A stretch of 64,000 nucleotides of DNA from the NCBI RefSeq assembly GCF_021246445.1, contig NZ_JAJQXW010000005.1:124001-188000 (forward strand), given 5' to 3'. This document shows, one piece after another, positions 2,647 to 44,212 of the stretch. This DNA is from Rhabdothermincola salaria. GTDB taxonomy: Bacteria > Actinomycetota > Acidimicrobiia > Acidimicrobiales > Acidimicrobilacustridaceae. The notes below the pieces were generated by a model. The model had not been told where the DNA came from and made no database searches. It saw only the letters and a list, made by a program, of their open reading frames with translations. Within the stretch, counting starts at the first letter, position 1, and the number at the start of each line of letters is the position of its first letter. The translations under genes were made by a program, and so were the position numbers.

Positions 2647-2706
2647 GCGCGTCGTCCCCGCCTCGGGTGTGCCGGTTCCGCCGACGTCGGGGCATGATGG
2701 GCCCGG

Positions 2707-3780
2707 ATGGGCAACGTCGTGGTGGTGACCGGAGCTGCGGGCTCGATCGGCCGGCGGGTCGTGGACGACGTGGCGTCCGACCGCCTCGTCCGCCGCGTGG
2801 TCGCCGTCGATCGCGCCGGGATGGCGTCGTCGACCCCCGGATCGACGCACCGCGCCGAGGTGCGATCGGTGCCCTTCGCGCTCGACGATCCTCGTCTGGC
2901 CGGCGCCGTGGCCGGAGCCACCGAGGTGATCTTGGTGAGCGCCGCGTCGGGCCCGGAGCTCGACGGCACGGGCGGAGCCGAGGTCGACCTCGACGGCGTC
3001 TCGGCCCTGCTCGGGGTGCTCGGGGACGTCGACACCCTGGAGCACATGGTGGTGGTGTCGTCAGGGCTGGTCTACGGCTCGAGCCCCGACAACCCTCTGC
3101 CCCTCACCGAGCGGGTGCGGGCCCGCCCCGATCCCGAGGTGCCCGCCGCCGTGGCCAAGGCCGAGCTCGAGCACCGGGTGCGGCGCTGGGCCGTGCAGCA
3201 CCAGGTCCCGTGCACGGTGCTGCGGCCCAGCGTGGTGGTGGCCCCCGAGAACGCCCGTTGGCTGGGTCGGTCGCCGTGGTCCAGCGCCGGGCTGCAGGTG
3301 GCGGGGGCCGAGCCGCCCGTGCAGTTCCTCCACGTCGACGACCTGGTGACCGCGGTCGCCGCCGTGCGTCGGTCTCGTCCCGATGCGGTGGTCAACGTGG
3401 CCCCCGACGGCTGGATCACCGCCGACGAGCGCCGGGCGCTCAAGGGCCCGGCGGCTCGGGTGCGCCTGCCGCGAGCCGTCGCGGTGGGGGTGGCCCGCCT
3501 CGGTCGCGGGCTGCGCGTCGACTGGGGCGACCCGTCCGCGGTCATCGCCAGCGCCGCCCCATGGGTGTTGGCCAACGATCGCCTCAAGGCCACGGGCTGG
3601 CGCCCCACCCACACCAGCGAGGAGGCCTTCGTGGTGGTCGACCCGGGTGGGCCGTGGTCTCGGCTCACTCCCCGCGACCGCCAGACGCTGGCCCTGGGCT
3701 CGCTCGGCGTCGCGGTGGCGACGGCCCTCGGCGTCGTGCTGGCGGTGGTGCAGCGCCTGCGCCGAGCCGGTCGCCGCTGA
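2707..3780 (+). CDS. NAD-dependent epimerase/dehydratase (extended SDR fold) with C-terminal membrane anchor
   Basis: A 357-residue protein. VVVTGAAGSIGRRV near the N-terminus is the Rossmann GxxGxxG dinucleotide-binding motif of extended short-chain dehydrogenases. The middle holds the expected LVYGSS pattern, then a substrate-binding region (VLRPSVVVAP, VQFLHVDDLVTAV). The last 35 residues include one hydrophobic helix (LALGSLGVAVATALGVVLAVV) and a basic end, so the protein may be tethered to the membrane. Its substrate, probably a nucleotide sugar or similar, cannot be told from the sequence. The gene ends directly before the 17-bp tandem repeat. Confidence 0.8.
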   Translation: MGNVVVVTGAAGSIGRRVVDDVASDRLVRRVVAVDRAGMASSTPGSTHRAEVRSVPFALDDPRLAGAVAGATEVILVSAASGPELDGTGGAEVDLDGVSALLGVLGDVDTLEHMVVVSSGLVYGSSPDNPLPLTERVRARPDPEVPAAVAKAELEHRVRRWAVQHQVPCTVLRPSVVVAPENARWLGRSPWSSAGLQVAGAEPPVQFLHVDDLVTAVAAVRRSRPDAVVNVAPDGWITADERRALKGPAARVRLPRAVAVGVARLGRGLRVDWGDPSAVIASAAPWVLANDRLKATGWRPTHTSEEAFVVVDPGGPWSRLTPRDRQTLALGSLGVAVATALGVVLAVVQRLRRAGRR

Positions 3781-5755: not shown

Positions 5756-6039
5756 GCGGTGGGGTGGGCTTCCTGCTCATCGTCGTGGTCATCACCGTGG
5801 TGGGCTCGCTGGTGCTGTGGTTGCGCAACCGCAAGCCCACGACGTACATGTCGAGCGTCGACGAGTTCCAACAGGAGATGCAGGCGCTCGGCCGCGATCC
5901 GAACCAGGCTCCCGAGCGGTCGCGCCGCTCGTCTCGCCCACGGGGCGCGGCCCCGCCCCCCAGCCGCACCTCCCCGCCCCCCACGTCGAATCGACGTGAT
6001 CGTCGGTCGCGCACCGACGACCAGGGTGGGGGGCAGTAG
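5752..6039 (+). CDS. Small single-pass membrane protein, unknown function
   Basis: A 95-residue protein with one strong N-terminal TM helix (residues ~5-25: VGFLLIVVVITVVGSLVLW), then RNRKPTTYMSSVDEFQQEMQAL and a basic, Pro/Arg/Ser-rich tail. The SSVDEF..EM.AL segment after the helix recurs in small actinobacterial membrane proteins of unknown role. It overlaps moaE by four bases and its stop is two bases from the proposed mreB start, so the three genes are probably translationally coupled. This placement hints at a cell-envelope role, which is inference only. Confidence 0.7.
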   Translation: MSGGVGFLLIVVVITVVGSLVLWLRNRKPTTYMSSVDEFQQEMQALGRDPNQAPERSRRSSRPRGAAPPPSRTSPPPTSNRRDRRSRTDDQGGGQ

Positions 6040-6041
6040 CT

Positions 6042-7037
6042 CTGGCTCGCGACCTGGCCATCGACCTCGGCACCGCCAACACCCTCGTGTACGTGCGCGG
6101 CGAGGGCATCGTGCTCAACGAGCCGTCGGTGATCGCCCTCAACAGCCGTACGCAGGACGTCCTGGCCATGGGCCACGAGGCGTGGCAGATGATCGGGCGC
6201 ACCCCCAGCTACATCGTGGCCGTGCGTCCCCTGCGCAAGGGCGCCATCACCGACTTCGAGGTGACGCAGCGCATGATCCGCCTGCTGCTGCAGCGCGTGG
6301 GGGTGAACCGGTTCAACCGCCCGCGGGTCGTCATCTGCGTGCCGTCGGCCATCACCGCGGTCGAGCAGCGCGCCGTCACCGAAGCGGCGCGTCGGGCCGG
6401 GGCGGCCGAGGCCCACCTCATCGAACAGCCCATGGCTGCCGCCATCGGGTCCGGCCTGCCCATCAACGAGCCGCTCGGCAACATGGTCATCGACATCGGC
6501 GGTGGCACGTCGGAGGTGGCGCTCATCTCCCTCGGGGGGGTGGTGGCGCTCGAGGCGGTGCGCGTCGGCAGCTTCGACATCGACGCCGCGATCCAGACCT
6601 ACATCCGACGCGAATACGGCATCGCCATCGGCGAACGCACGGCCGAGGAGATCAAGGTCACCATCGGCTCGGCGTGGCCCACCGAGCACGAGTTCGCGGC
6701 CGAGGTCCGGGGTCGCGAGCTCATGAGCGGGCTCCCCAAGACCGTCATCCTCACGGCCGAGGAGGTGCGCGAGGCCATCGACGAGCCGGTGTCGGCCATG
6801 GTCGACGCCGCCATCGCCTGTCTCGGCCAGGCTCCGCCGGAGCTGGCCCAGGACCTCATCGGCCAGGGCATCCACCTGGTGGGCGGTGGCGGCATGCTGC
6901 GGGGCCTCGACCTGCGTCTCGAGCACGAGACCGACATCCCGGTGCACCTCGTCGATCTGCCGCTCGAGTCGGTGGTGCTGGGCGCGGGGCACTGCGTGGA
7001 GTCCTTCGACCAGCTCAAGGTCATGTTCATGGAGTGA
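6042..7037 (+). CDS. mreB: MreB-like rod-shape-determining actin homologue, apparent CTG start
   Basis: A 331-residue protein of the MreB/Mbl family, which polymerises on the inner membrane and guides wall synthesis. Visible motifs are phosphate-1 DLAIDLGTANTLVY at residues 4-17, the phosphate-2 loop VIDIGGGTSEVAL and the adenosine loop LVGGGGMLRGLD near the C-terminus. The first GTG in frame (6087) would remove the whole phosphate-1 strand. The only codon that keeps it is CTG at 6042 (LARDLAIDLG), and the frame immediately above has no ATG, GTG or TTG. A G-rich stretch (GGGTGGGGGGCAG) lies just upstream, and the preceding gene stops two bases before. No mreC, mreD or rodA follows. Confidence 0.85.
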   Translation: MARDLAIDLGTANTLVYVRGEGIVLNEPSVIALNSRTQDVLAMGHEAWQMIGRTPSYIVAVRPLRKGAITDFEVTQRMIRLLLQRVGVNRFNRPRVVICVPSAITAVEQRAVTEAARRAGAAEAHLIEQPMAAAIGSGLPINEPLGNMVIDIGGGTSEVALISLGGVVALEAVRVGSFDIDAAIQTYIRREYGIAIGERTAEEIKVTIGSAWPTEHEFAAEVRGRELMSGLPKTVILTAEEVREAIDEPVSAMVDAAIACLGQAPPELAQDLIGQGIHLVGGGGMLRGLDLRLEHETDIPVHLVDLPLESVVLGAGHCVESFDQLKVMFME

Positions 7038-15888: not shown

Positions 15889-17046
15889 ATGGACACCGTC
15901 GAGTCGACTCTACCGCCCCCCTGGCCCCCCGCCGGTGGCGAACCGCCGGCCGGTGACCCGCGGGCGGGTTCGGCCGACGAGCCCCGCCCGAAGTGGTCGC
16001 CCCGCCGCAAGTGGGTGGTGGGGTCGCTGGCGGTCGCGGTCGTGGGGCTGTTGTCGGGGGCGGTCTTCTGGCGGCTGCCCTACTACACGTTGTCGCCCGG
16101 CGCCGTCCGCGACACCGAGAGCTTCATCGCCGTCGAGGGGACGGAGACCTTCGTCGACGACGCGGGGACCATCAGCTACCTCACCGTGTCGGTGAAGCAG
16201 GCCACCCCGTTGGAGGTGTTGGCTGCCTGGATCGACCCGGCGGTGGAGGTGGTGGAGGCGGAGAGGATCCTCGGCGACCAGACGCCTCAGGAGAACCGTG
16301 AGCTCAACCTGCAGCTCATGGCCGGGTCCAAGGACTCGGCCACCTACCAGGCGTTGAGCCGCATGGGCTACGACATCCCGACCGACGGCACGGGTGCCGT
16401 GGTGGCGTCGGTGGCCGACGACGTGCCGGCGGCGGCCGTGCTCACCCGTGGTGACACCATCGTCAGCGTCGATGGCGAGTCGGTGGCGTTGAGCGACGAG
16501 CTGATCGATGCCCTCTCGACCCGGTCCCCGGGCGACGTGGTCGAGCTCGGCGTGCAGGCCCTCGACAGCGACGACACCCGAGTGGAGGCGGTCGAGCTGG
16601 TGGGCCGCCCCGACGACCCGAGCCAGCCCATGCTCGGCATCACCACGTTCACCCGGGACCTCAGCTTCGACTTCCCCGTCGACGTCACCATCGACTCCGG
16701 TCGGGTGGGCGGGCCGTCGGCGGGGTTGGCGTTCACCCTCGGCATCCTCGACGCCCTCACGCCGGACAGCGTGACCGGCGGGACGAAGGTGGCCACCACG
16801 GGCACGATGGAGCTCGACGGGCAGGTGGGGCCGGTCGGCGGCGTGCACCAGAAGGTGGTGGCTGCCCGGCGGGCCGGCGTCGACCTCATGATGGTGCCGG
16901 CCGCCGAGATCGACGAGGCCCGTCGCTACGCCGACGGGTTGCGCGTGGAGCCGGTCGAGGACCTCGACGACGCCTTGGCCGTGCTGGCCACCGTCGGTGG
17001 GGGCGATGCCGTGCTGCCCGCCGAAGCGGTGAGCACCCCGTCGTGA
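15889..17046 (+). CDS. YlbL-like PDZ and Lon-type (S16) serine protease, membrane anchored
   Basis: A 385-residue protein with a Pro-rich cytoplasmic N-terminus, one TM helix (WVVGSLAVAVVGLLSGAVFW), a PDZ domain in the middle (GAVVASVADDVPAAAVLTRGDTIVSVDG) and a C-terminal Lon proteolytic domain. The Ser-Lys dyad of S16 is present: Ser in GGPSAGLAFTLGILD and Lys in GGVHQKVVAARRAG. The LPYYTLSPGAVRDT segment after the helix is typical of the actinobacterial YlbL family. It is probably an extracytoplasmic quality-control protease. It is preceded by the divergent small membrane protein and followed by the DivIVA gene. Confidence 0.88.
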   Translation: MDTVESTLPPPWPPAGGEPPAGDPRAGSADEPRPKWSPRRKWVVGSLAVAVVGLLSGAVFWRLPYYTLSPGAVRDTESFIAVEGTETFVDDAGTISYLTVSVKQATPLEVLAAWIDPAVEVVEAERILGDQTPQENRELNLQLMAGSKDSATYQALSRMGYDIPTDGTGAVVASVADDVPAAAVLTRGDTIVSVDGESVALSDELIDALSTRSPGDVVELGVQALDSDDTRVEAVELVGRPDDPSQPMLGITTFTRDLSFDFPVDVTIDSGRVGGPSAGLAFTLGILDALTPDSVTGGTKVATTGTMELDGQVGPVGGVHQKVVAARRAGVDLMMVPAAEIDEARRYADGLRVEPVEDLDDALAVLATVGGGDAVLPAEAVSTPS

Positions 17047-17116: not shown

Positions 17117-19273
17117 GTGGCCCAGGACTCGAGCGCTCCCATCGACCCCGACGACATCATCAAGCAGTCGTTCACCACGGTGCGGCGGGGGCTCGACCCC
17201 CTCGAGGTCCAGCGCTACCTGCTCGACCTGGCCAACCAGATGCGGGCCGCCCGCGAGCGCGAACGAGCGCTCGAAGGCCAGCTCCGCGACGCCGAGAAGC
17301 GGGCCACGCCCATCGACCAGCTCGACCCCAGCCGGCTGACCGCGCTGCTCGGCGAGGAGACGGCACGCGTGCTCGACGCCGCTCGGGCGGCGGCGTCGGA
17401 GATCCGGGCCAAGGCCGAGGAGAACGTGGCTCGTCTGTTGCGAGAGGCGCGCGACGAGGCCCAGCGGATGCGAGCCGATGCCGAGAGCATCCTGGTGGAG
17501 CGCACCGAGGAGGCCGAGGCGGAGGTGGCCCGCATCCGCGCCACCGCCGACGGGGTGAAGGAGCAGGCCGAGCTCGATGCCGACAGCCTGCGATCGGCGG
17601 CGGCGGCGTTGCGCGACGAGGCCGAGGCCGAGGCGGCCTCCTTGCGCGACGAGGTGGCCGCCGAGATCGCCGCCCAGCGCGAGGCCGTCGAGGCCGAGGT
17701 GGCCGAACGGCGGGAACGGGGCGAGGAGGACGCCGCCGAGCTCACCGAGGCCGGTCGTCTGGAAGGCCGCGAGATGGTGGCCGAGGCCCAGCGCGTCCGG
17801 CAGCGGATGCTCGACGACCTGGCCCGCCGTCGCAAGCTGCTGCGCCAGCAGATCGAGCAGCTGCAGGCCGGGCGCGACCGGCTCCTCTCCGCGTACGACG
17901 TGGTCCGCCAGACCCTCGACGTGGCCACCGAGGAGCTGCACGTCGCCCTGCCGGAGGCGAAGCTGGCCGCCGAGACGGCCAGCCTGCAGGCGACGGAGGA
18001 CGACGTCGCGTTCGCAGCCGAGGTGGAGGCGGCCAGCCGGGAGGAGGCGGTCGGCGATGAGGGCGAGCAGCCCCCGGTCGGCGACGACGCCGGCGCCGAG
18101 CGCCAGGACCAGGACGCCGATGCGACCGTCGCCGCCGACGCCGAGGCGTCCGACGCAGACGACGCGGGTGGCGGGGACGTGCCGGTCGGCGGCCTCGACG
18201 ACGAGTCCGGGACGGACGACGTCGAGCACGCCCCCGTCGGGTCCGATGAAGCACCCGACGACGCCGAGGGTACGAGCGGGGACGGCGAGGCGACGATCGC
18301 CGAGGAGCCGGCGCCGCCCGTCGACGTCGACGATGGCGACGAGCCGAGCGATACCGACGAGTCGAGCGCCGCCGACGGCGGGCGGCGGGCGCCCGATCCG
18401 AGCGAAGGCCGCCATTCGACCTCCGTGAGGGTCGTGCGGTCCGAGCGGGCCGAGCGCACCGCGGCGGTCTTCGCCCAGGTGCGCGACGACGAGGAAGAGG
18501 CGCCGGGCGCAGCGGTGCTCACCCATCCGGGCGAGACGTCGGCCGGCCCGGGTGCCGGTGAGGCGACCGAAGGGCCCGAGGGGTCCGCGGGCGACGAGGA
18601 CGAGAGACGTGAGGTCCACCCGCTCATCGAGGCTCGCGACCTCGCTGTCGCCGAGCTCGAGCGCAACCTGTCGCGTCGGCTCAAGCGCGACCTGTCCGAC
18701 GAGCAGAACGAGCTGCTCGACGCCGTCCGCCAGGTGAAGGGTTCTCCCGCCGCGGAGACCGTGCTGAGCGCACCCGACGTGCAGGTCGAGCGCTACCGCG
18801 ACCTGGCTCGTCCCCTCCTGGCCGACGCCGCCGAGGCCGGCGCCGAGCTGGCGGGTTCCGAGGGCGGGGGTGAGGTGGCCACCGACGTCGACGAGCTGGC
18901 GGGCGACCTGGCCATGGAGCTGGCGTTGCCGCTGCGTGAACGGCTGGAGCGGTGCTTCGCCGAGGCCGAGGGCGATCCCGACGAGCTCGCCGAGCGCATC
19001 CGGGCCTGCTACCGCGAGTGGAAGTCCCAGCGGGTCGACGGTCCGGCGTCGGCGGCGGTCGTCGCCGCGGCCGACCGGGGCCTGCTCGACGCCCTGGCCG
19101 ACGGCACGCCGGTGCGGTGGGTCGTCGACGATGGCCGCACCGCCTCTCCCGACTGCGAGGACAACGCCCTCGCCGAGGGCGTCGTGAAGGGCGAGCCCTT
19201 CCCGACCGGGCACGTGGCGCCCCCGGTGCACCCGTCGTGCCGTTGCCTGGTCGTGCCCGTGAGCGCCCACTGA
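17117..19273 (+). CDS. DivIVA-domain coiled-coil protein with a MuF-like Cys/His tail
   Basis: A 718-residue protein. Residues ~10-45 (DPDDIIKQSFTTVRRGLDPLEVQRYLLDLANQM) are a DivIVA N-terminal membrane-curvature domain. About 250 residues of Ala/Glu/Arg-rich coiled coil follow (to ~290), then a 170-residue acidic disordered stretch, then a helical C-terminal region. The last 50 residues (RWVVDDGRTASPDCEDNALAEG...HPSCRC) look like the end of Mu F / SPP1 gp7-type phage head proteins, with C680, H705, C708 and C710 positioned like a metal site. Start is GTG 17117. It probably acts at the pole or septum in growth or division; the role of the tail is unknown. Confidence 0.75.
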   Translation: MAQDSSAPIDPDDIIKQSFTTVRRGLDPLEVQRYLLDLANQMRAARERERALEGQLRDAEKRATPIDQLDPSRLTALLGEETARVLDAARAAASEIRAKAEENVARLLREARDEAQRMRADAESILVERTEEAEAEVARIRATADGVKEQAELDADSLRSAAAALRDEAEAEAASLRDEVAAEIAAQREAVEAEVAERRERGEEDAAELTEAGRLEGREMVAEAQRVRQRMLDDLARRRKLLRQQIEQLQAGRDRLLSAYDVVRQTLDVATEELHVALPEAKLAAETASLQATEDDVAFAAEVEAASREEAVGDEGEQPPVGDDAGAERQDQDADATVAADAEASDADDAGGGDVPVGGLDDESGTDDVEHAPVGSDEAPDDAEGTSGDGEATIAEEPAPPVDVDDGDEPSDTDESSAADGGRRAPDPSEGRHSTSVRVVRSERAERTAAVFAQVRDDEEEAPGAAVLTHPGETSAGPGAGEATEGPEGSAGDEDERREVHPLIEARDLAVAELERNLSRRLKRDLSDEQNELLDAVRQVKGSPAAETVLSAPDVQVERYRDLARPLLADAAEAGAELAGSEGGGEVATDVDELAGDLAMELALPLRERLERCFAEAEGDPDELAERIRACYREWKSQRVDGPASAAVVAAADRGLLDALADGTPVRWVVDDGRTASPDCEDNALAEGVVKGEPFPTGHVAPPVHPSCRCLVVPVSAH

Positions 19274-19341: not shown

Positions 19342-22300
19342 ATGCGCGTCCCCACCGACATGCCGAAAAGGCGCCGCCGTGGCTCAGGCCGCGGCCGCGT
19401 CGTCTTCATCGCCATCGTCCTCGTCCTGTTCGTCCTCGTGATCTCGTTGCGAGGCGTTGCTGGGTTCTGGACGGACTACCTGTGGTTCGAGTCGCTCGAC
19501 CTGACCTCGGTCTTCACGGGGATCCTCGGGGCCAAGATCGCGCTCGGTGTCATCTTCACCGGCGCCTTCTTCGTGTTGTGCTTCGTGAGCCTCACGGTGG
19601 CCGACAAGGTGGCACCGGACTTCCGGCCCCAGGGGCCCGAGGACGAGATGCTGCACCGCTACCACTCGGTGGTGGGCCGCAAGGCGTGGCTGGTGCGCGC
19701 CGGCATCTCACTGCTGTTCGGCCTGGTCGCCGGGGTGGGCGTGTCGGGCCAGTGGCAGCAGTGGCTGCTGTTCCGCAACGGTGGCGACTTCGGTGTCCGC
19801 GACGCCACGTTCGACACCGACGTCGGCTTCTACGTGTTCAAGCTGCCCTTCTACACGACGGTGGTCGACTGGCTGTTCGCCTCGGGCGTCGTCATCCTCA
19901 TCATCACCCTGGTGGCCCACTACCTCAACGGCGGGATCCGCCTGCAGGCTCCGGTGCAGCGGGTGACTCCGGCGGTGAAGGGCCACATCTCGGTGATCCT
20001 GGCCCTGTTGGCGCTGGTCAAGGCGGTCGACTACTGGCTCGAGCGCTACACGCTGACGAACTCCACGGGCGGCACCGTCGACGGGGCCACCTACACCGAG
20101 GTGCAGGCCCAGCTCCCGGCGATCTACCTGCTGTTGTTCATCGCCCTGCTCTCCACCGGGCTGTTCATCTACAACATCTGGCGGCGGGGTTGGGTGCTCC
20201 CCGTCATCGCCGTGGGGTTGTGGGGCCTGGTGGCGGTCGTGGCCGGCACCGCCTACCCGGCGTTCATCCAGCGCTTCGTGGTGGAGCCCGAGGAGTCCGA
20301 GCGCGAGTCCGCTTACATCGAGCAGAACATCGCTGCCACCCGCCAGGCCTTCGGCCTCGACGGGGTCAACACCGAACCGTTCGACTACACCGAGGACCTC
20401 GGGGCCGCCACCGAGGCGGTCAACGAGAACCCCGGCACCATCCGCAACATCCGCCTGCTCGACCCGGGCATCGTGCTGCCCACCTTCGTGCGGTTGCAGA
20501 GCCAGTTCGCGGCCTACACCTTCCAGGACCTCGACGTCGACCGCTATCCCATCGAGACGGCCGACGGCAGCTTCGCCGAGACCCAGGTCGTCATCGGCGC
20601 TCGCGACCTCAACGTCGACAACATCCCCCAGCAGTCGTGGGAGGGCCGTCACCTCATCTACACCAGCGGCTTCGGCGTGACCATGGCGCCGGCCAACGCC
20701 ACCACCCCCGAAGGCCGTCCGTCGTTCGTGCTCGAGAACGTGCCGGTGGAGGTGAACCCGCCGGGCGCCATCAACGTGCCGCTCGACCAGCCGCAGATGT
20801 TCTACGGCCAGAACCTGCCCGGCTACGCCATCACCAACACCACGCGTGAGGGTCCGCCCGAGCTCGAGGAGGAGATCGGCGAGGAGGCGGTCCCCCAGGA
20901 CGAGGACGCCGGCGGCGGGGTCGAGCTCAGCTCCTGGTTCCGCAAGGCCGCGTTCGCGGCCCGCTTCGGCGACTGGAACCTGATGATCTCCAACTTCGTC
21001 ACCGAGGAGTCGCGCATCGTCTTCCAGCGCGACGTCGCCGAGCGGGTGCGCACCCTGGCGCCGTTCCTCGAGTTCGACGGCGACCCCTACCCGGTGATCC
21101 ACGACGGACGGGTGGTGTACCTGTTCGACGCCTTCACCACCACCGACCGCTACCCCAACTCCCAGCGGGCCGAGGTGGGCACCCTGGTGGCCGACTCCAC
21201 CCTTTCGGGCACGCGCTTCAACTACGTGCGCAACTCCGTCAAGGGCGTCGTCGACACCTACGACGGCTCGGTCACGTTCTACGTGATCGACCCCGACGAC
21301 CCTCTCGCGGCCGCCTATCAGCAGGCCTTCCCCGACCTGTTCGCCGACGGCGACGAGTTCCCCCAGGGTCTGCGCGCCCACTGGCGCTACCCGGAGGACA
21401 TCTACAAGGTCCAGACCAACATGTGGGCCCGCTACCACATCACCGATCCGGACGAGTTCTACGAGCGCACCACCGCCTGGTCGGTGGCCCCCGACCCCGG
21501 GGTGAGCCCAGGTGGCCCGGCGTCGCAGCCCGCCACCCAGCTGGTGCCCGGCCAGGGCCTGGTGCGCGCCGCCGAGGCCCGCATCGACCCCTACTACATG
21601 CTGTTGAAGCTGCCCGGCGAGGACGACGAGAGCTTCGTGTCGTTGCGCCCCTACGTGCCGTTCTCCGAGGACGACACCCGGCGCACCCTCACCGCGTTCA
21701 TGGTCGCCCACAGCGACCCTGATCGCTACGGCGAGATGCAGGTGTACGAGATGCCCTCGGGCACCAACATCGACGGCCCGTCCATCGTCAACGCCAACAT
21801 CCTCGCCGACGGCGAAGTCTCCGAACGGATCTCGTTGCTCAACCAACAGGGCTCGCGGGTGCTGTTGGGCAACATGTTGTTGATCCCGCTCGACGACTCG
21901 ATCCTCTACGTCCGCCCGATGTACGTCGAAGCCGACAACACCACTGCGGTGCCCGAGCTGCGCAACGTCATCGCCGTGTTCGGCCAGCGGGTGGTGATGT
22001 CCGACACGCTCGACGAGGCGTTGCGCGAACTGTTCCCCGGCGCCAGCCCGGAGACCTTCGAGGACACGGGGGACCCACCCGGCTCCGACGAGGAGCCGGC
22101 GGAGCCCGCCCCCGAGGAACCCGACGATCCGGACACGCCGCCGACGACGGAGCCGCCGTCCACCGGCGACGAGACGGTCGACCAGTTGCTGGCCGATGCC
22201 GCCACCCTGCTGGTCGAGGCCGAGGCCGATCTGCGGGCCACCGGCGACCTGGGGGCCTACCAGGAAGCGGTGCAAGCGGCCTCGGAGCTGCTGGCGCAGG

Positions 22301-22380
22301 CCCAGCAGCTGCTGTCGGCCGACGCGCTGCCACCCCCGGAGCCGGTGACCACCACCACCAGACCACCCACCCCGACCTGA
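19342..22380 (+). CDS. UPF0182 family membrane protein
   Basis: A 1012-residue protein of the actinobacterial/cyanobacterial UPF0182 family (Rv0064-like). It has about seven TM helices in the first 320 residues (VVFIAIVLVLFVLVISL, ALGVIFTGAFFVLCFVSL and so on, with the family-typical FWTDYLWFESL), then a large extracytoplasmic domain (FGDWNLMISNFVTEESRIVFQRDVAERVRTLAPFL; YVRPMYVEA). The C-terminal 120 residues are acidic, Pro/Thr-rich linker plus a short helical segment. Length is normal. The ATG at 19342 is used. Molecular function of the family is not established. Confidence 0.92.
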   Translation: MRVPTDMPKRRRRGSGRGRVVFIAIVLVLFVLVISLRGVAGFWTDYLWFESLDLTSVFTGILGAKIALGVIFTGAFFVLCFVSLTVADKVAPDFRPQGPEDEMLHRYHSVVGRKAWLVRAGISLLFGLVAGVGVSGQWQQWLLFRNGGDFGVRDATFDTDVGFYVFKLPFYTTVVDWLFASGVVILIITLVAHYLNGGIRLQAPVQRVTPAVKGHISVILALLALVKAVDYWLERYTLTNSTGGTVDGATYTEVQAQLPAIYLLLFIALLSTGLFIYNIWRRGWVLPVIAVGLWGLVAVVAGTAYPAFIQRFVVEPEESERESAYIEQNIAATRQAFGLDGVNTEPFDYTEDLGAATEAVNENPGTIRNIRLLDPGIVLPTFVRLQSQFAAYTFQDLDVDRYPIETADGSFAETQVVIGARDLNVDNIPQQSWEGRHLIYTSGFGVTMAPANATTPEGRPSFVLENVPVEVNPPGAINVPLDQPQMFYGQNLPGYAITNTTREGPPELEEEIGEEAVPQDEDAGGGVELSSWFRKAAFAARFGDWNLMISNFVTEESRIVFQRDVAERVRTLAPFLEFDGDPYPVIHDGRVVYLFDAFTTTDRYPNSQRAEVGTLVADSTLSGTRFNYVRNSVKGVVDTYDGSVTFYVIDPDDPLAAAYQQAFPDLFADGDEFPQGLRAHWRYPEDIYKVQTNMWARYHITDPDEFYERTTAWSVAPDPGVSPGGPASQPATQLVPGQGLVRAAEARIDPYYMLLKLPGEDDESFVSLRPYVPFSEDDTRRTLTAFMVAHSDPDRYGEMQVYEMPSGTNIDGPSIVNANILADGEVSERISLLNQQGSRVLLGNMLLIPLDDSILYVRPMYVEADNTTAVPELRNVIAVFGQRVVMSDTLDEALRELFPGASPETFEDTGDPPGSDEEPAEPAPEEPDDPDTPPTTEPPSTGDETVDQLLADAATLLVEAEADLRATGDLGAYQEAVQAASELLAQAQQLLSADALPPPEPVTTTTRPPTPT

Positions 22381-27347: not shown

Positions 27348-27426
<79 letters not shown>

Positions 27427-27439
27427 GAAACAGCAGGTC

Positions 27440-27465
27440 AGGGCCCATCCGAGAGGATGGGCCCT
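27440..27465 (+). terminator. Terminator of tRNA-fMet supplied by the island
   Basis: AGGGCCCATCC and GGATGGGCCCT form an 11-bp perfect stem with loop GAGA, 15 bases after the tRNA. It replaces the chromosomal hairpin now found after attR. Confidence 0.85.
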
Positions 27466-27482
27466 CGCCGTTTCCGGACCGA

Positions 27483-27503
27483 CTTCTAACGGATCTTCTA
27501 ACG
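27483..27503 (+). repeat. Candidate integrase arm sites, left copy
   Basis: A 21-bp element holding two direct copies of CTTCTAACG 12 bp apart, found again perfectly at 44012-44032 in the same orientation. A third, diverged copy (CTCTCAACG) starts at 27512. Position 57 bp inside attL suits arm-type binding by the integrase. Confidence 0.7.
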
Positions 27504-27657
27504 GGTTGCGGCTCTCAACGGGTTCCCTGCAGCCAGGACACGAACCCAAGGCCCGTGCCCGTGTCCGTCGATCGGGGGTCAGGATCCGTCCAACGCCCTC
27601 CGCGGTCGATCAAACTCGCATCGGCGATGATCGAGCCGATGGCGGAAGGCGACTGGC

Positions 27658-29265
27658 GTGCGCATCAGCAGGCTGACGGTTTGCAATCACTTGGCGGTAC
27701 CTGAGATTGACATCGAGGTGCGAGAGCACCTCGTGCTCGTAGGTCCCAACGAGTCTGGCAAGACCTCATTGTTGAGGCTTCTGGATGGGATGCTGTGCGG
27801 GTCCCTTGGCAGGCTCTACGGCCTCATTGACGTCGGGGACCTACGAGACCCGAGCCGACCGATGACCTGCGAGATTGAGTTCAGGGACTTCACTGAGGAC
27901 GAGAAGGCATCCTTGCCGGAGCAGATCGAGGTGCTCCCCGACAGCGCTCAGAGATTGCGCCTACTGCTGCGTGCAACTCCGGATCCCGCTGGTGACGAAG
28001 TCGCCCTGGAAAGGGTGTTCATCAAGCCGGGTCTTGCGATTGCCGCTACTGCAGCGCACCTCGAATGCGTCGGTTGGACGCTCCTGCCTGCTGGAAGATC
28101 CCCCGATCGGGAGCTGGGGGCAGGGCGACGTAGCGCCATTGGTGGACTTCTCGGCTCCGTGGACCTCGGAGCTTCGCTCTCAGAGATCGTGTCGGCGGTC
28201 GAGAACCTCCACGGCGTGGTCCATGACGCGCCTGCCTTGGTGAAACTCAGGGAGAGCCTGGCTTCCGCGCTCGGTGAACTGCTTCCGAGGGGTGTTGAGG
28301 CCGACGATCTCGTGCTCGAGCTTCCTCGCGCCGATGCCCACGCCCCACTCGCCGATGTCGACGTGAAGCTGAAGCACGGGACAGCGCCTCGTCCGCTCCG
28401 AGACCAATCGGACGGTGTCCGTGCCATGTCGACTGTCGCCATTCAACTTCTCGCAAGGGGTGGGGCCCGGATCATCGCTGTGGACGAACCTGAGATTCAT
28501 CTTCATCCACGCGCTCAGGCGCGAACAGGGTCGATGCTCCGCGACAAGGCCGGGCAGGCGGTCATTGCTACCCACGCTCCTGCTGTACTCACGCAGTTCT
28601 CCCCCATGCACGCTGTCGCGTTCGTTGGTGGCGCATGCCGGCAGCTCTCCGTCGAGCCGTTCCACGACGAACCGAAGGCGGCAGACCAGTGGTGGACGAC
28701 GCCGACGCTTGAGCCGCTCACCAGCCGGTGTGTGGTGCTCGTTGAAGGAGTCGCCGACCGAGTGATGGTCGAGGCATGCGCTATTGCACTTGGGTTCGAC
28801 TTCGATCGACTCGGCATTGTCGTTGCGGCCGTAAACGGCGCTGGCGGGTTCAAGATGGCCCTCCGGTTGTTCGGAGCCCAGGGCTTTGGCGTTCCGCTCG
28901 TCGGCCTGGTGGACCTGAGTGAAGCCGATGATGTGGCCAAGTACCTGGGAATCAATCGCTCGGAGGTGCCTGGAGCGGGATTCCTGATCTGCGACCCGGA
29001 CCTCGAGATGGAGTGCGTCCGGGGGTTGGGAGCGGAAGCCCACGCCAGACGCCTGATCGCGACGGGATTCTTCAAGGAGTCGGCTATCTGCGCTGGCAAC
29101 AGCGTGGCTGGTCTTGCCTCCCTCCAGAACGAGCCCTACGCCGCCTGGTGTCGCACTCGCAAGACCGAGGTCGCAGCGGCGCTAGCGTCCGAACTGACCA
29201 AGTCCGATGCATCGAGCCTTGAGGTCCTCGCCGCTGTCGTGGCCGATGCTGTGGCCAGGGTTTGA
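27658..29265 (+). CDS. gajA: Gabija-like GajA: OLD-family ATPase-TOPRIM nuclease
   Basis: A 535-residue protein with an N-terminal ABC/SMC-type ATPase and a C-terminal TOPRIM nuclease. Walker A is GPNESGKTS (29-37). Walker B with the family pattern is VDEPEIHLHP (275-284), followed by the ATHAP switch at 304-308. The TOPRIM glutamate lies in VLVEGVADR (E363), and VDLSEADD (418-425) supplies acidic metal ligands. OLD nuclease plus an adjacent UvrD-like helicase is the makeup of the Gabija anti-phage system; GajA cuts DNA and is held back by ATP. Start GTG 27658 has GGAAGG eight bases upstream. Base composition is lower in GC than the flanks. Slightly shorter than typical GajA (~580). Confidence 0.8.
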   Translation: MRISRLTVCNHLAVPEIDIEVREHLVLVGPNESGKTSLLRLLDGMLCGSLGRLYGLIDVGDLRDPSRPMTCEIEFRDFTEDEKASLPEQIEVLPDSAQRLRLLLRATPDPAGDEVALERVFIKPGLAIAATAAHLECVGWTLLPAGRSPDRELGAGRRSAIGGLLGSVDLGASLSEIVSAVENLHGVVHDAPALVKLRESLASALGELLPRGVEADDLVLELPRADAHAPLADVDVKLKHGTAPRPLRDQSDGVRAMSTVAIQLLARGGARIIAVDEPEIHLHPRAQARTGSMLRDKAGQAVIATHAPAVLTQFSPMHAVAFVGGACRQLSVEPFHDEPKAADQWWTTPTLEPLTSRCVVLVEGVADRVMVEACAIALGFDFDRLGIVVAAVNGAGGFKMALRLFGAQGFGVPLVGLVDLSEADDVAKYLGINRSEVPGAGFLICDPDLEMECVRGLGAEAHARRLIATGFFKESAICAGNSVAGLASLQNEPYAAWCRTRKTEVAAALASELTKSDASSLEVLAAVVADAVARV

Positions 29266-30914
29266 TGGCGACGGTCGTGGATCCACCGTGGTACGAGACT
29301 CACGAACTCAGCTCGGCGTTGGTTCTCGCGCCTCCAGGATGCGGCAAGACCGAGAGCCTCGCTCGATGGGTCGAGTCGCTTGTCGACCGCGGCCTGGTCA
29401 ATTCGCCTAAGCGCATCCTCGGCCTCACGTTCTCGAACAAGGCCAAGGCGAATCTTCGAGCTCGCTTGAAAGCCCACCTCGGTACCAGGTGGTACCGCCA
29501 TGCCCTCGTAACCAACTTCCACGGGCTGGCATACCGGGTCTATCAGCACCATGCGGGCGCAATCGGGCGTGTGCCGCTAGAGATAGCGCCTCAACGAGGG
29601 TGGCTCAAGGGCTTCACCAACGGGATCGTCAAGTCCACCGGATGTGACTCGGCTGAGCTCGCCTGTGTGCTTCGCTCCGCCAAGTGCGGACCGTTCGATG
29701 ACGAGCAGGTGTTGGCGCGGCTCGAGGCCGCCGGGCTGCACGCTGCGATGGAGTACGAAGCGGCGCTTCGGGCGCAGAACAGGGTGGACTTCGACGATGT
29801 GATTCGCTTGGGCCACCTGACGCTGGCCCACCCCGGGGTCCAGGACCTATATCAGTCGAGCTTCACAGCGGTCATCGTTGACGAGGTGCAGGACCTTTCT
29901 CTTGGCCAACTGGAACTGGCCCGCCGCATCGGTGGAGGGCGATCAGTGTACGCAGGCGACCTTGCGCAAGGGATCTACGGATTCGCAGGAGCGGAGCCAA
30001 TTGCCGTCCTTGAGAGCATCCGGGTCGAGGTGGACGCTGAGTATCGACTTGAGTCTTCCTATCGCTCATCGCCTGCAGTCCTGCGGGCCGTCAGCTCGGT
30101 GTCGAGGGAACTTGGAGGAGCAACCGTTCTCTCCGCCATCCCCGATGAGTGGAGCGATCGAGGGACCTTCAGGATTCTCCGCACGCGGCACGTGCTCGCC
30201 GAGGCTGAGGTTGTCTCGGAGCTGGTTGCCGGCTGGGTTAGGGCGTTCCCGGCTGACTCTGTAGCGGTCATCGCTCGCACGGCGTCGCGGCGGCGTGCCC
30301 TCGACCGGGCGATCGACGAGTCGGGTATCGCTGCGGAGATCTGGGACTTTCCTGCGCATCGCCCCCTCATTGCTGAGCTCTTGGCCCGTCACCTCGAGCT
30401 CGCCCTGCTCGTTGGGGATCCGCCCTTGGCATTGCAGGAGCTCTACAGCCGGTGCCTGGTGGACCTCGACGAACAGGACCTCGACGCCCTCGACGAGCTA
30501 CAGGAGGCTCTGGAGGCCATCGAAGAGCTGGTGGGGGAGGGGTACTCCCTGGCGGATGTGGTTTCGGGCATCCGGGTGTCCTCGGACCCCGATGCTCCGG
30601 TCGGCCCGGGTCTGCACCTCTTGAACGGGCATCTCGGCAAAGGTCAGCAGTTCGACCGGGTGGTGGTCCTGGGCTTGGAGGAGGCGATCCTCCCTCACTA
30701 TGCGGCGATGCTCGCTGAGCGATCTGGGGATCGTTCCCAGATCACCGAGGAACTCGCGGTCCTCCACGTGATGTTGTCGAGAGCTCGAGAGGATCTCGTC
30801 GTGACCGTTGCGGACGTCGTTCCGAAATGGAATGGGCAGGACATGGATCGGACACCAAGTCGCTTCTTGACGTTGTTGACGGCCGAGGCCGACGAGGTGC
30901 TTGATCGGCGTTAG
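29265..30914 (+). CDS. gajB: Gabija-like GajB: UvrD/PcrA-type helicase
   Basis: A 549-residue superfamily 1A helicase. Walker A is APPGCGKTE (22-30), motif Ia is LTFSNKAKANLRARL, motif II is VDEVQDLS (205-212), motif III is AGDLAQGIYGFAGA (230-243) and motif VI is EELAVLHVMLSRARED. Length matches GajB (~500) rather than full UvrD (~700), as the 2B domain is reduced. The ATG overlaps the gajA stop by one base (TGATG), giving strict coupling. In Gabija, GajB binds DNA ends and turns on GajA. It converges with the integrase gene, sharing four bases at the stops. Confidence 0.8.
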   Translation: MATVVDPPWYETHELSSALVLAPPGCGKTESLARWVESLVDRGLVNSPKRILGLTFSNKAKANLRARLKAHLGTRWYRHALVTNFHGLAYRVYQHHAGAIGRVPLEIAPQRGWLKGFTNGIVKSTGCDSAELACVLRSAKCGPFDDEQVLARLEAAGLHAAMEYEAALRAQNRVDFDDVIRLGHLTLAHPGVQDLYQSSFTAVIVDEVQDLSLGQLELARRIGGGRSVYAGDLAQGIYGFAGAEPIAVLESIRVEVDAEYRLESSYRSSPAVLRAVSSVSRELGGATVLSAIPDEWSDRGTFRILRTRHVLAEAEVVSELVAGWVRAFPADSVAVIARTASRRRALDRAIDESGIAAEIWDFPAHRPLIAELLARHLELALLVGDPPLALQELYSRCLVDLDEQDLDALDELQEALEAIEELVGEGYSLADVVSGIRVSSDPDAPVGPGLHLLNGHLGKGQQFDRVVVLGLEEAILPHYAAMLAERSGDRSQITEELAVLHVMLSRAREDLVVTVADVVPKWNGQDMDRTPSRFLTLLTAEADEVLDRR

Positions 30915-32068
30915 GTCGCTTTCTCGCTGAACATTGCCTCGCCGAATACCCGAGCGGCCTCGGCCTGCATGCCTGGGAGGACGTGCTGGTAGACGGTCAT
31001 GGTGAAGGCGGGGCTGCTGTGGCCGAGGCGTTCGCTGACGACCTTCACCGGGACGCCGGCCTTGAGCAGGATCGTTGCGTGGGTGTGGCGCAGGTCGTGG
31101 AGGCGGATCCTCGGCAGTGACGACTTGGCCAGGTGACGCTCGAAGCACTGGCTGACGTAGTCGGGGTGGATCGGCTCGCCGTCGGGGCGGGCGAACACGA
31201 AGCCGTCCTCGCTCCACCGTCGGCCGGTCAGCTGGTGCTCGGCGATCTGCGTCTTCCGCCACGCTCGTAGAACGTCGACTGTCCGAGCGTCGAGGTCGAC
31301 CATGCGGCGGCCGGTCTCGGTCTTCACGTCGCCGAGGCGCTTCTCGTAGGCGACGTTGGTGACGGCCTGGTGGACCGAGAGGCGGGCGGCGTCGAGGTCG
31401 ACGTCGCTCCACTGGAGCCCCAGTACCTCGCCACGGCGCATCCCGGTGTGGGCGGCGAGGTGGAACGCGGTGCCGAGCGGGTGGTCCTCGATCTCGGCGA
31501 GGAACTGGCGGAGCTGGGCGGCGTCCCACACCGTCATCGCCGAACGTCGACGCACCCGCGGCGGGTCGGCGAGGCCGGCCACGTTGCGCTGGACGGTGCC
31601 CTTGCGGCAGGCGTCGGCGAGCGCCTTGTGCAGCATGCCGTGGATGTTCCGCACGGTCTTGGGGGAGAGCCCTCCACCACCGCCGTTGAGCCGGCCCTCG
31701 GTGAGCAAGTCGGCGTAGAAGCCCTCGAGGTCCTCGGGGGTGAGGCGCTGCAGCGGGATCATCCCGATGCGGGGGAGCACGTGGGAGTTGATCGTCTGGC
31801 GGTACGAGGCGTAGGTGCTGTGGCCGACCTGGGTCTTGCGGACAGGGAGCCACCGCTCGACGAGGTAGTCACCGAGGGTGATCCGCTCGGGGGAGCGGTA
31901 GTCGCCGTCGTGCATCCGCTTCACGAGCTCGGTGAGCACCCGCTCGGCTTCTCGGCGGGTGGCGCCGCCCTGGTACCAGCGGCGGCGTTCTTTGCCGGTG
32001 GCCGGGTCGGTGCCCTCGTAGACGACGGCGTAGTAGCGGTTGCCCTTCTTGGCGACGTGGCCTCTCAC
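30911..32068 (-). CDS. int: Tyrosine-type site-specific integrase
   Basis: A 385-residue recombinase of the phage-integrase family. An N-terminal arm-binding-like domain (NRYYAVVYEGTDPATGKERRRWYQGGATRREAE) is followed by a SAM-like core-binding domain (LGDYLVERWLP...SYRQTINSHVLPRIG) and the catalytic domain. All active residues are present: R211 or R212 in HTGMRRGEVLGL, K249, H324 and R327 in HDLRHTH, H350 in LGHSS and nucleophile Y360 in TVYQHV. The start is GTG 32068 with AGGAGG just upstream. It should recombine the 48-bp att repeats at tRNA-fMet. It lies 3.5 kb inside attL rather than directly next to it, as the Gabija pair sits between. Confidence 0.93.
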   Translation of the reverse strand: MRGHVAKKGNRYYAVVYEGTDPATGKERRRWYQGGATRREAERVLTELVKRMHDGDYRSPERITLGDYLVERWLPVRKTQVGHSTYASYRQTINSHVLPRIGMIPLQRLTPEDLEGFYADLLTEGRLNGGGGGLSPKTVRNIHGMLHKALADACRKGTVQRNVAGLADPPRVRRRSAMTVWDAAQLRQFLAEIEDHPLGTAFHLAAHTGMRRGEVLGLQWSDVDLDAARLSVHQAVTNVAYEKRLGDVKTETGRRMVDLDARTVDVLRAWRKTQIAEHQLTGRRWSEDGFVFARPDGEPIHPDYVSQCFERHLAKSSLPRIRLHDLRHTHATILLKAGVPVKVVSERLGHSSPAFTMTVYQHVLPGMQAEAARVFGEAMFSEKAT

Positions 32069-32394
32069 GGCTCCTCCTGGCGTGCAGCCACGACCGGTCC
32101 GCTCGTCAGGGGACGACGGTCGAGGCGCCGACGTCGTCGAGGGCGTGCCTGGGCGAGGTCGGATCGGGTTGGAGGAGCACGTCGCACCGCAACCGGCCCG
32201 TGCTCGAGGCCGTCCACTTCGGCGGTGAGCCGATTGTGGCCCGGCATCTCGAGACGGTCCAGCGGCCACGGAGGCGGGGGAGTGGCCCACAGTCTCCGAA
32301 GGACGCGACGCCAGCGGCCGTGGGGAGTGGGATCAGGAGGGGAGGGCCGTCGAGCGCGTCGACGCCCGCCGTCACGGTCACCAGGAGGCCACCC
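32069..32394. promoter_or_regulatory. Divergent control region between integrase and excisionase-like gene
   Basis: 326 bp separate the two start codons. Ribosome binding sites are clear at both ends (AGGAGG before each GTG). No convincing gene or strong palindrome is visible; open frames here are long only because of high GC. It probably holds both promoters and the switch between integration and excision. Confidence 0.5.
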
Positions 32395-32730
32395 GTGGAG
32401 ACGCCCCAGCTGCTGCCGGACTTCCTCACCGTCGAAGAGGCCGCCCGGGTGCTGCGGATCGGCCGCACCGCGGCCTACGGGCTGACCCGGCAGTGGCGGG
32501 CAACCGCGGGCGCCGAGGGTCTCCCAGTCGTGCGCTTCGGTCGTCAGCTCCGCGTGCCACGGGCGGCGCTCGAGACCTACGCCGGTGGTCCGCTCACGGC
32601 GCCGCCGACCGGGCGCGTTGCGAACAAGGTCCATACCTCCAAGACCCACCCCGTGAAGGCCGTCGCGTCGCGCCGCTTGTCGAATCCCTCGATCAGCTGC
32701 GAGCAGCCTTCGCTGTTCGACGAAGCCTGA
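32395..32730 (+). CDS. HTH (excisionase/MerR-like) DNA-binding protein
   Basis: A 111-residue protein with an N-terminal winged-helix of the excisionase type: FLTVEEAARVLRIGRTAAYGLTRQWRATAG...LPVVRFGRQLRVPRAALETY. This is the HTH_17 pattern (TVEEAA.LL.I.R..AY...... G.....R.G...RVPR..L). A basic, Ser-rich tail follows. GTG 32395 has AGGAGG six bases upstream. Divergent placement next to the integrase supports a role as recombination directionality factor, or as a regulator of int. Confidence 0.75.
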   Translation: METPQLLPDFLTVEEAARVLRIGRTAAYGLTRQWRATAGAEGLPVVRFGRQLRVPRAALETYAGGPLTAPPTGRVANKVHTSKTHPVKAVASRRLSNPSISCEQPSLFDEA

Positions 32731-33003
32731 GCGCCGACGGAACTGCCGCTCGGGCCTGAGCTCGGGGCACATGCGCGTCTGACGTCGTAGATCGTCGCGG
32801 TCGTGATCGGGGCCGAGCCGCGCCGTGACCTCGTCGCGCCCCTGCCCGTCTTGAGACCCTTCACGGCCGTCGGCGGGACGCGGAGCGCCGGTGCGCTCTC
32901 GGCCCGCGAGACCTGTTTCGACGCGGCATCACCATGTCACCTACACAGATCATCACCGTCGGTGTGCACATGACTTTCGTCGCGTCCGCTTAGGCTGCCG
33001 TCC

Positions 33004-33372
33004 GTGTCGGAGGAGAGCGCGGAGGGCGATGGTTCTGCCCGTCGAGGGCGGCCCCGGAAGTGGGCGTCCGAGGCGGAACGTAAGCGTGCCTACCGGGCCC
33101 GTAAGGCCGACGAGCTGGCCGAGCCCGAGCGGCTTCGTGCTGAGCTTCGCGATGCCCGCTCCGAGGTCCGGCGCCTCGAGAAGGAGTGCGCACGGCGGGA
33201 GAGGCTCGTCGGCATGGCGGAGCGCCGGTTGGCGAAGGAGACCCGGGAGCGGAAGGAGCTGGAGGCGAAGATCGTCCAGCAGGACAACGTCGTCGCCTTC
33301 TGGGAGAACCGGGCCCGGATCGCCGAGCGACGGCTCTGGGATCTCCACCACCCCGGGGACTCATCCGAGTAG
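33004..33372 (+). CDS. Basic coiled-coil protein with AT-hook-like N-terminus
   Basis: A 122-residue, highly charged protein. RRGRPRKW (about residues 13-20) resembles an AT-hook minor-groove binding motif. The remainder is one long coiled coil rich in Arg/Glu/Leu (RAELRDARSEVRRLEKECARRERLVGMAERRLAKETRERKELEAKI is cut here only by short breaks). There is no catalytic motif. The GTG at 33004 is the only reasonable start. 273 bp of gene-free DNA precede it. It may be a nucleoid-associated or regulatory protein of the island; function unknown. Confidence 0.55.
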   Translation: MSEESAEGDGSARRGRPRKWASEAERKRAYRARKADELAEPERLRAELRDARSEVRRLEKECARRERLVGMAERRLAKETRERKELEAKIVQQDNVVAFWENRARIAERRLWDLHHPGDSSE

Positions 33373-33553
33373 GCGCAGGTCAGCCGGCCGTCGGGACCGA
33401 TACCGGGACCACTTCCGGGACCGAGATCTGGCCCAGGGGCGCAACGCAACGGTTGCCCGACCGGCGAAATCCGTCTGGAATCGTCTCGGCTAGGTTCGCA
33501 AGGGGAGGCGGGGACGGCCCGCATCTGGAAGGCATGGCCACCGTCAGGCGCTC

Positions 33554-34171
33554 GTGGTGGCGAGCTCGTACCGAAGGAGCTGTGTGGGGTTTCGAGAGGT
33601 CCCGGCTGCTGACCCAGACGATGTCATCCGTGGAACTGACCGGCGGCTCGTCGACTTCTGGAGGTGGGGCTACTCGGACCTCGTCTCCAACGACGTTCGC
33701 AGCGTCTTCGCCGAGTACCTCGTCGCCACCGCCCTCGGGGTGACCGATTCGACCCGGGTCTCGTGGGCGAAGTTCGACCTCACCTACCAAGGTCGTGGCA
33801 TCGAGGTGAAGGCCACAGGTGACCACCAGTCGTGGGGGGCCAGCGTGGGGCGTCCGAGACGGGTCTGGGGAATCGGGCCGACCCGTGGCTGGGATCCTGC
33901 GACCAACAGCTATGCCGATGAGGCTCGGAGATCAGCGTGCGCGTACGTGTTTGCCCACTGGCGCGGGGCCGATGATGCACCCCTCGGTCCGCTCGACGTC
34001 GGATCGTGGGTGTTCTACGTGGTGGCGACATCTGTCCTGGATGGGCGCTTTCGGGAGGCGAAGACTCTGTCGCTGAGTTCGGTCCAACGCCTCGTCGGAG
34101 AGGGACTCGCCGTGGCGTGCGGTCACGAGGATCTGCGAGAAGCCGTCGACGGGGTGCTCGGCCCCGGCTAG
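33554..34171 (+). CDS. Putative PD-(D/E)XK-fold protein
   Basis: A protein of up to 205 residues. FAEYLVATALG, then SWAKFDLTYQGRGIEVKATGDHQSW, shows the order Glu (E54), Asp (D75) and ExK (E84-V-K86), the pattern of PD-(D/E)XK nucleases. The later part (RSACAYVFAHWRGADD, GSWVFYVVATSVLD) fits the core strands. Start is uncertain: GTG 33554 is the longest option, and the conserved-looking part begins near residue 30. It lies 65 bp before hsdR in the same direction and may be cotranscribed. A DNA-cleaving defence role is inferred from fold and context. Confidence 0.55.
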   Translation: MVASSYRRSCVGFREVPAADPDDVIRGTDRRLVDFWRWGYSDLVSNDVRSVFAEYLVATALGVTDSTRVSWAKFDLTYQGRGIEVKATGDHQSWGASVGRPRRVWGIGPTRGWDPATNSYADEARRSACAYVFAHWRGADDAPLGPLDVGSWVFYVVATSVLDGRFREAKTLSLSSVQRLVGEGLAVACGHEDLREAVDGVLGPG

Positions 34172-34236
34172 CAGTCCCGATAGCCGCTGGTCGAGAGCCG
34201 GTGCCCTCGAGTCTTGCGTCGTAGGCTCGGATCTCG

Positions 34237-39922: not shown

Positions 39923-40167
39923 TGGCCAAGTACGACCCACTGCACGAGCACCTCGTATCGAAGCCCGACTCGTTGCTGAAGCTCTCGTTCTCGGAGATCG
40001 AGCGGATCTTCGGCGAGCCGCTTCCGGCGTCGGCACGGAAGCACCAGGCGTGGTGGGCCAACGAGTCCGACGGGAGCCACGTCGAAGCTCGGGCCTGGCT
40101 GGACGCCGGCTATCGCACCCAAGGGCTCGATCTCAACTCCGAGACCATCGAGTTCGTCCGAGGCTGA
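39922..40167 (+). CDS. Small conserved protein at the end of the hsd operon (DUF7662-like)
   Basis: An 81-residue protein from ATG 39922 (sharing one base with the hsdM stop; GTG 39919 would add one residue), with GAGGAG five bases before. The body is YDPLHEHLVSK, LLKLSFSEIERIFGEPLP and KHQAWWANESDG, then SHVEARAWLDAGYRTQGLDLN. I recall this pattern from small proteins of unknown function, in which WWAN and ARAWLDAG are the most constant parts. Tight coupling to hsdM suggests a role with the restriction system, such as control or DNA binding; that is inference. Confidence 0.65.
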   Translation: MAKYDPLHEHLVSKPDSLLKLSFSEIERIFGEPLPASARKHQAWWANESDGSHVEARAWLDAGYRTQGLDLNSETIEFVRG

Positions 40168-40184
40168 GCAGGGGATCGCCTTCG

Positions 40185-40862: not shown

Positions 40863-40949
40863 CCCATGATCGTAGGCAGGGCCACCGACAAGAGTGCGGG
40901 GATGTCGCAGACACCGGGCATCGTGCGTTCTGGCCGTAAGGAGTCGCAC

Positions 40950-42703: not shown

Positions 42704-42734
42704 GTTGCGGGCGAAACAACTACAGTGCCGGTCC

Positions 42735-43916: not shown

Positions 43917-44011
43917 CACCTGTGGCTGGTTTCAATGCCCTGGTTCGCTTACCGCATGATCCGATGACTGGTGTTGCCGACACGCGATCTGTTCGTGTTG
44001 GCGGTCATGGG

Positions 44012-44197: not shown

Positions 44198-44212
44198 TTC
44201 CGAGATGTCGGC

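Follow-up and report, generated by a model that had tools for sequence, protein, structure and literature searches.

According to the available parts of Jamet et al. (PMC5576092), tailed phages often have MuF proteins and the function of their domain is called unknown, apart from the binding of gp7 to the portal of phage SPP1. The same source reports that 96% of the bacterial muf genes are linked to prophages, which makes the family described here unusual. MuF was also found joined to effector domains such as toxin or ADP-ribosyltransferase, as described in the accessible sections of PMC5512222. The open-licence literature yielded no report of a protein joining DivIVA and MuF, an absence that carries little weight there.

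The window, i.e., the whole stretch of 64,000 nucleotides from Rhabdothermincola salaria analysed here, carries a gene initially predicted to join an N-terminal DivIVA domain to 50 C-terminal residues with the pattern of phage head morphogenesis proteins. Its product is almost certainly a DivIVA-family protein, chromosomal and apparently kept by vertical descent, in which the last ~210 aa have a common origin with the C-terminal, MuF half of the portal-MuF fusions of phages. Sequence, profiles and predicted fold agree and strongly support the join of DivIVA with a phage head module of the MuF/gp7 type. As for its extent, the alignments place the phage-like part at ~210 aa, not 50. The features of the locus are collected in Table 1.

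Table 1. Coordinates of the DivIVA-MuF gene, its parts and other features of the window.
Feature	Position in the window	Strand	Basis or remark
Zincin_2 metallopeptidase gene	1414-3060	-	PF10103
MreB gene	6000-7034		PF06723
Upstream neighbour, PDZ + Lon_C (S16) protease gene	15889..17046	+	PF13180, PF05362; linked gene, separate protein
DivIVA-MuF gene	17117..19273	+	GTG start, 718 aa; ORF limits exact
DivIVA domain, aa 11-126	17147..17494	+	PF05103, E 2.5e-10
Coiled-coil-like continuation, aa 127-290	17495..17986	+	inferred from sequence, boundary by eye
Acidic low-complexity linker, aa 291-500	17987..18616	+	net charge -52 across aa 290-500
Motif VFAQVR (family form commonly LFARLR), aa 451-456, within the linker	18467..18484	+	sequence
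C-terminal region, aa 501-718; homology with portal-MuF proteins of phages, in their C-terminal half	18617..19270	+	profile positions 15-222/224; AF2
N-terminal helix of the C-terminal region (..LSRRLKRDLSDEQNELLDAVRQVKG), aa 507-542	18635..18742	+	also aligned in phage loci L142, L145, L146
MuF-like core, aa 591-718	18887..19270	+	alignment, profile-profile comparison
Cys/His cluster S677-P-D-C680 ... H705-P-S-C708-R-C710	19145..19246	+	sequence, alignment
Downstream neighbour, UPF0182 gene	19342..22380	+	PF03699, E 5.6e-249; linked gene
tRNA-Met	27348-27424		
Integrase gene	30914-32332	-	
HsdR-like gene	34225-37056		
HsdM gene	38366-39919		

The N-terminal domain scores 40.9 bits against a Pfam cut-off of 28, so that this half of the original prediction holds, and DivIVA is matched (Pfam, E ≤ 0.01) by 60 of the 62 full-length relatives, a set (A2) taken from 111 frames. 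The short motif of the linker, of the VFAQVR/LFARLR type, occurs in 40 of these 62 relatives versus 0.9 expected from shuffles. All five cysteines of the protein (613, 631, 680, 708 and 710) lie within its last 106 residues. The genome encodes one further DivIVA above the Pfam cut-off (C1:279259, a frame of 371 aa), whose best NCBIfam model is Wag31, under the cut-off of that model. With the MreB gene located 10 kb upstream, an actin-type system of cell shape is probably present alongside the two DivIVA proteins.

Comparison of the tail (aa 501-718) with the PHROG families led to a match with phrog_2662, a portal protein family, along aa 547-715 (E 6.5e-11). This match is confined to positions 521-708 of the 717 of the profile and no N-terminal portal domain was found, the N-terminus being DivIVA. 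The other PHROG families matching the tail, up to E 10, are 11 in number, eight of head and packaging and three unknown. With the full 718 aa as query, phrog_2662 is absent from the matches, of which the best has an E of 0.0069. The relatives were compared in an alignment (A1) of 65 tails, the window's own and those of 64 relatives. Seven of the 72 tails available (window tail plus 71 loci) were left out, i.e., L002, which is the window itself, the near copies L006, L015, L020 and L030, and L044 and L061, whose Cys/His ends are degenerate; L031 and L053, both from one genome, were retained. Among these aligned tails, 59/65 match phrog_2662 (E ≤ 0.01) and 16/65 match phrog_16493, named head maturation protease.

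The Phage_Mu_F model of Pfam (PF04233) gives no match to the window protein. It matches five of the 62 full-length relatives (E ≤ 0.01), the best with an E of 5.9e-5 and 24.2 bits, below the cut-off of 29.6 bits, and a scan of 198 genomes of the phylum with this model led to matches in eight, those of G032, G134 and G161 lying at DivIVA-MuF genes, below cut-off. In the same way, TIGR01641 (SPP1 gp7, NCBIfam) reaches just E 0.02-0.03 on the window protein, below its cut-off, and Pfam DUF7603 matches the tail with an E of 0.0087, also under cut-off. Profile-profile comparison (hhalign) of the tails with a set (A3) made of Mu gp30, five of its relatives and three PF04233-defined proteins gives a probability of 95.2% and an E of 2.5e-8 over 121 columns, and the similarity to phage head proteins that had been predicted is thus found. 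The relatives of this set are five of 296 phage records related to Mu gp30, and the PF04233-defined proteins are those three of the five above-cut-off PF04233 genes that have an H..C.C end. Twenty column-shuffled controls reach a probability of at most 0.6%, at the default settings of a separate script, the 95.2% having been obtained with the comparison tool itself; run with the script of the controls, the real profiles score 96.8%, but with a one-column alignment and under other settings.

The viral counterparts considered are the best 80 of at least 100 confirmed loci, chosen by the pattern PP[AVL]Hx[GN]CRC and tblastn. The family profile matches a frame in all 80 (E ≤ 1), a result that is circular for the motif, and partly for the rest, because of the way these loci were chosen. 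Phage loci L142 and L146 align at profile positions 15-222 of 224 and L145 from position 14, so that 208/224 positions are covered, and these three alignments include the helix KR.LQDeQN..L..LR. Eight phage relatives from the best 80 were scanned and all match phrog_2662. The N-terminal part matches portal profiles in six of them (L142, L144, L146, L165, L168 and L173); L147 has no portal match and shows a MutT/NUDIX match ahead of its MuF part, and L149 is a fragment of 190 aa. Because six of these relatives have a portal N-terminus, the window protein resembles a portal-MuF fusion with its portal replaced by DivIVA. Furthermore, a tblastn search of 50,697 named phage records with the tails gave short C-terminal matches in 14 records, the best being a portal (E 4e-4), which a second tail query matched once, with a coverage of 53%. 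A motif arising by chance is rejected in view of the full-length alignment, the shuffled controls and the presence of W668 and C680 in 57/57 viral rows, though both lie outside the search pattern.

The predicted fold leads to the same proteins. The AlphaFold2 model of the tail made from the window, L001 and 57 viral rows has a pLDDT of 90.5 and a pTM of 0.86, and the one made from the window and L001 only (pLDDT 81.3, pTM 0.81) has nearly the same helices and strands, with a less certain Cys/His end. Searches of BFVD with these two models gave 50 and 36 fold matches (E ≤ 0.001), respectively, with a TM-score by query length of at most 0.77 for the viral-row model. Many of these matches are nameless, and the named ones are mostly portal, minor capsid, head morphogenesis, minor structural and capsid-maturation proteins, the remainder being zeta-toxin, ADP-ribosyltransferase, one 'Uncharacterized' and one 'Gp15'. 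No clear solved MuF structure emerged from searches of the PDB by sequence and fold. By fold, nothing was found at E ≤ 0.001, and a second comparison gave helical-bundle look-alikes, the best (Z 10.6) being a designed bundle. By sequence, the helical part gave the best matches, to ZorA chains (E 0.0017-0.0057), and ribosomal S19 was also matched (E 0.012), both being read as coiled-coil or helix noise. The nearest candidate is a phage portal, PDB 8qqn chain PA, whose residues 521-589 weakly match a mostly viral MuF alignment (E 0.011) and which may hold a MuF-like part.

The end of the protein shows the pattern W..C..HP.CRC within its last ~50 residues (W668, C680, G698, PP702-703, H705, C708-R-C710), so that the pattern originally noticed stands and only its extent was underestimated. 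W668, C680, PP702-703, H705 and C708-R-C710 are kept by the chromosomal rows and by the viral ones (A4, 57 of the 80 viral loci retained as the best of at least 100 confirmed) alike. The first Cys of the set is replaced by Ser at position 677 of the window protein and is found in 55/65 tails. The pattern CCHCC is found in 46/65 tails, and the other 19 lack the first Cys in 10 cases, the second in nine and also the His in five, the counts of tails with these residues being slightly too high because of the sequences left out, the degenerate L044 and L061 among them. Frames L044, L119 and L136 have no Cys/His end. Since the set is kept in most relatives, metal binding by it is plausible. Two changes separate the chromosomal family from the viral rows. 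The ARTE helix motif of the latter (T in 56/57, E in 55/57) is lost, the commonest residues in the chromosomal rows being D (44/65) and A (20/65), and the window has A-S-A-A at this site (tail positions 144-147); the chromosomal family has also gained YREWK around R633. The loss of ARTE suggests that the binding mode of the phage proteins may not be kept.

The gene is not adjacent to a portal or terminase gene and is flanked by PDZ-Lon and UPF0182 genes. UPF0182 lies directly downstream of DivIVA-MuF in 106/109 loci, a sample that includes the window's own genome and counts one genome double, and two of the three misses (L051 and L060) are due to overlapping long open frames. PDZ-Lon, whose nearest NCBIfam model in the window is SepM (NF041438, 166.2 bits, below the 200-bit cut-off), lies upstream in 56 of 76 loci; in the loci of other classes (L102-L114 and L121), it adjoins in only one of 14, L114. 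A Zincin_2 metallopeptidase gene lies 13 kb before the PDZ-Lon gene of the window, and a gene of this type is presumably also found near PDZ-Lon/UPF0182 in mycobacteria.

UPF0182 is present in 26 of 34 genomes without a tail match, which were drawn from the no-match lists of the order, class and phylum searches, nine of them from the order's single-sequence search only. Among 20 loci of tail-less genomes, nine (L242, L243, L245, L247, L250, L251, L254, L256 and L257) have PDZ-Lon directly before UPF0182, with no DivIVA-MuF. Three others (L244, L248 and L249) have, between these two genes, a DivIVA frame with no MuF match; these are natural tail-less versions, with IFARLR, LFARIR or LFARLR near the end of the frame. 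L246 has a partial DivIVA match at this place, PDZ-Lon is nearly 5 kb from UPF0182 in L258, and UPF0182 is alone in L241, L252, L253, L255, L259 and L260, no PDZ-Lon adjoining UPF0182 in seven of the 20 loci. Thus, the PDZ-Lon/UPF0182 pair exists without the DivIVA-MuF gene, which sits between them in the window's lineage, and the pair-only loci together with the three tail-less frames indicate that some lineages can do without the tail. In the order, G009, G021, G029, G067 and G080 have neither the tail nor UPF0182, and in these five genomes the reason is joint loss or assembly gaps.

At E ≤ 0.001, the tail was found in 157 of the 198 genomes searched in the order and in 209 of 296 in the class, which is probably Acidimicrobiia. 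The search of the phylum gave it in 56 of 396 genomes; 18 of the 56, with six family codes, are outside the class, and two phylum matches (G517 and G777) are short frames. Ten of the matches listed for the order's genomes have an in-frame stop. DivIVA-MuF is therefore a conserved gene of the lineage and no odd one-off. A tree calculated on 141 columns divides 42 chromosomal tails from 29 viral ones at a single branch, with support 99/97. This fits one capture followed by descent, the tree being unrooted, and transfer from phage to cell is the likely direction; the original wording 'phage-derived' is thus likely for a join that is itself well established. Recent insertion of a prophage is rejected in view of the distribution, the synteny, the similar GC3 of the tail (0.922) and of the N-terminal part (0.935) and the position of the stretch with tRNA-Met, integrase and type I restriction genes, which begins 8 kb downstream. 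This stretch, from the tRNA-Met through the integrase gene to position 46000 (27348-46000), is probably a genomic island carrying a restriction system of type I; GC is 0.658 at 27500-46000 vs 0.695 for the window. The window's genome has no PF04860 portal or PF05065 capsid gene, and PF04860 was found in five and PF05065 in seven of the 41 genomes searched (own and relatives). The join has persisted in entire bacterial lineages over a very long time, so that the virus part seems to have been turned into a working part of the cell.

What this part does can be proposed in outline. The DivIVA end would polymerise at the septum or pole, on the curved membrane there, and the long acidic linker, bearing LFARLR as a short docking motif, would hold out the MuF domain. 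By analogy with the phage MuF protein that docks on the portal, this domain could be a protein-docking adaptor, in which the most likely role of the Cys/His cluster is to stabilise the fold, zinc perhaps being bound. The partner system would be the products of the flanking genes, the PDZ-S16 protease and the large UPF0182 protein, which we take to be membrane proteins. Taken as a whole, the identity of the protein together with a docking mechanism is a reasonably probable explanation, and the best one. Its functional half, in which the protein is anchored by DivIVA and serves as docking scaffold for the protease and UPF0182 encoded next to it, is put forward tentatively and could well prove wrong. 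The stricter version, in which a docking domain of phage head assembly was taken into a division or pole scaffold and docks an oligomeric membrane machine (UPF0182 and the S16 protease) on the DivIVA lattice as it does in the virus, is possible and rather doubtful. The upstream neighbour is presumably a protein of the same kind as the PDZ-Lon protein DdcP (YlbL) of B. subtilis, and that it acts like DdcP is a guess from analogy. DdcP is described, in the available parts of PMC11790237, as a membrane protease that degrades the division inhibitor YneA.

The tail could also be an attached relic, DivIVA and the FARLR motif doing the work, as the tail-less frames that keep FARLR would suggest. This is unlikely, since the tail is under purifying selection, with a dN/dS of 0.10-0.31 vs 0.20-0.57 for the linker and a lower value in each of six pairs, and is near-invariant at several positions (R633 and W668 in 64/65 tails, C708 in 65/65). 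Other DivIVA systems anchor the chromosome, and SPP1 gp7 is said to be called a DNA-binding protein in the title of Stiege et al. 2003, so that a polar DivIVA holding DNA via its MuF domain could be considered. The acidity of the tail makes such a tether improbable, the net charge over aa 591-718 being -11 in the window, with a median of -8 and a range of -14 to +3 in the 65 aligned tails. A membrane-held MuF copy could instead act as a decoy that co-assembles with incoming phage portals or poisons them, the predicted fold being that of phage portal-associated domains and the window's own genome being without a PF04860 portal; purifying selection, the fixed place beside UPF0182 and the loss of ARTE are unlike an arms race and leave this very improbable. 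A metal-dependent enzyme or peptidase fused to DivIVA, as the conserved Cys/His set and the 'head/capsid maturation protease' names among the PHROG and BFVD matches might evoke, is scarcely credible, since the same region also matches head-morphogenesis and minor-capsid names, the cluster is common to phage proteins named portal, minor capsid and head morphogenesis, and the window protein has no enzyme or peptidase family match in Pfam or NCBIfam and no HExxH, which speaks against a zincin and leaves the term 'peptidase-like' used at first unsupported.

Returning to the docking scaffold, if it is true, docking on a DivIVA lattice would give MuF a house-keeping use free of prophages and would be a case of capsid machinery turned into machinery of cell architecture. 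A MuF that is non-viral, evolves slowly and is linked with DivIVA and with two conserved neighbours on which little work exists offers a way to study both the docking partner of MuF and the role of UPF0182.

Among known systems, the phage portal-MuF fusions of phrog_2662 are like the window protein in their C-terminal ~210 aa, which align end to end and share the helix KR..Q.EQN..L..LR and the end W..C..F..G..PP.HP.CRC. They differ from it since DivIVA stands in place of the portal part, ARTE has been lost and YREWK gained, and the setting is not that of a phage. The MuF domain of PF04233 (Mu gp30, SPP1 gp7) is the same domain according to the profile-profile comparison, whereas the window protein itself has no PF04233 match and is not linked to a prophage. 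DivIVA/Wag31 shares the N-terminal DivIVA domain, and Wag31 is not known to have a MuF tail. Lastly, the polymorphic toxins described in the available parts of PMC5576092 also have a MuF domain, but it is N-terminal, followed by the toxin domain, and belongs to temperate phages, whereas the window protein ends in MuF.
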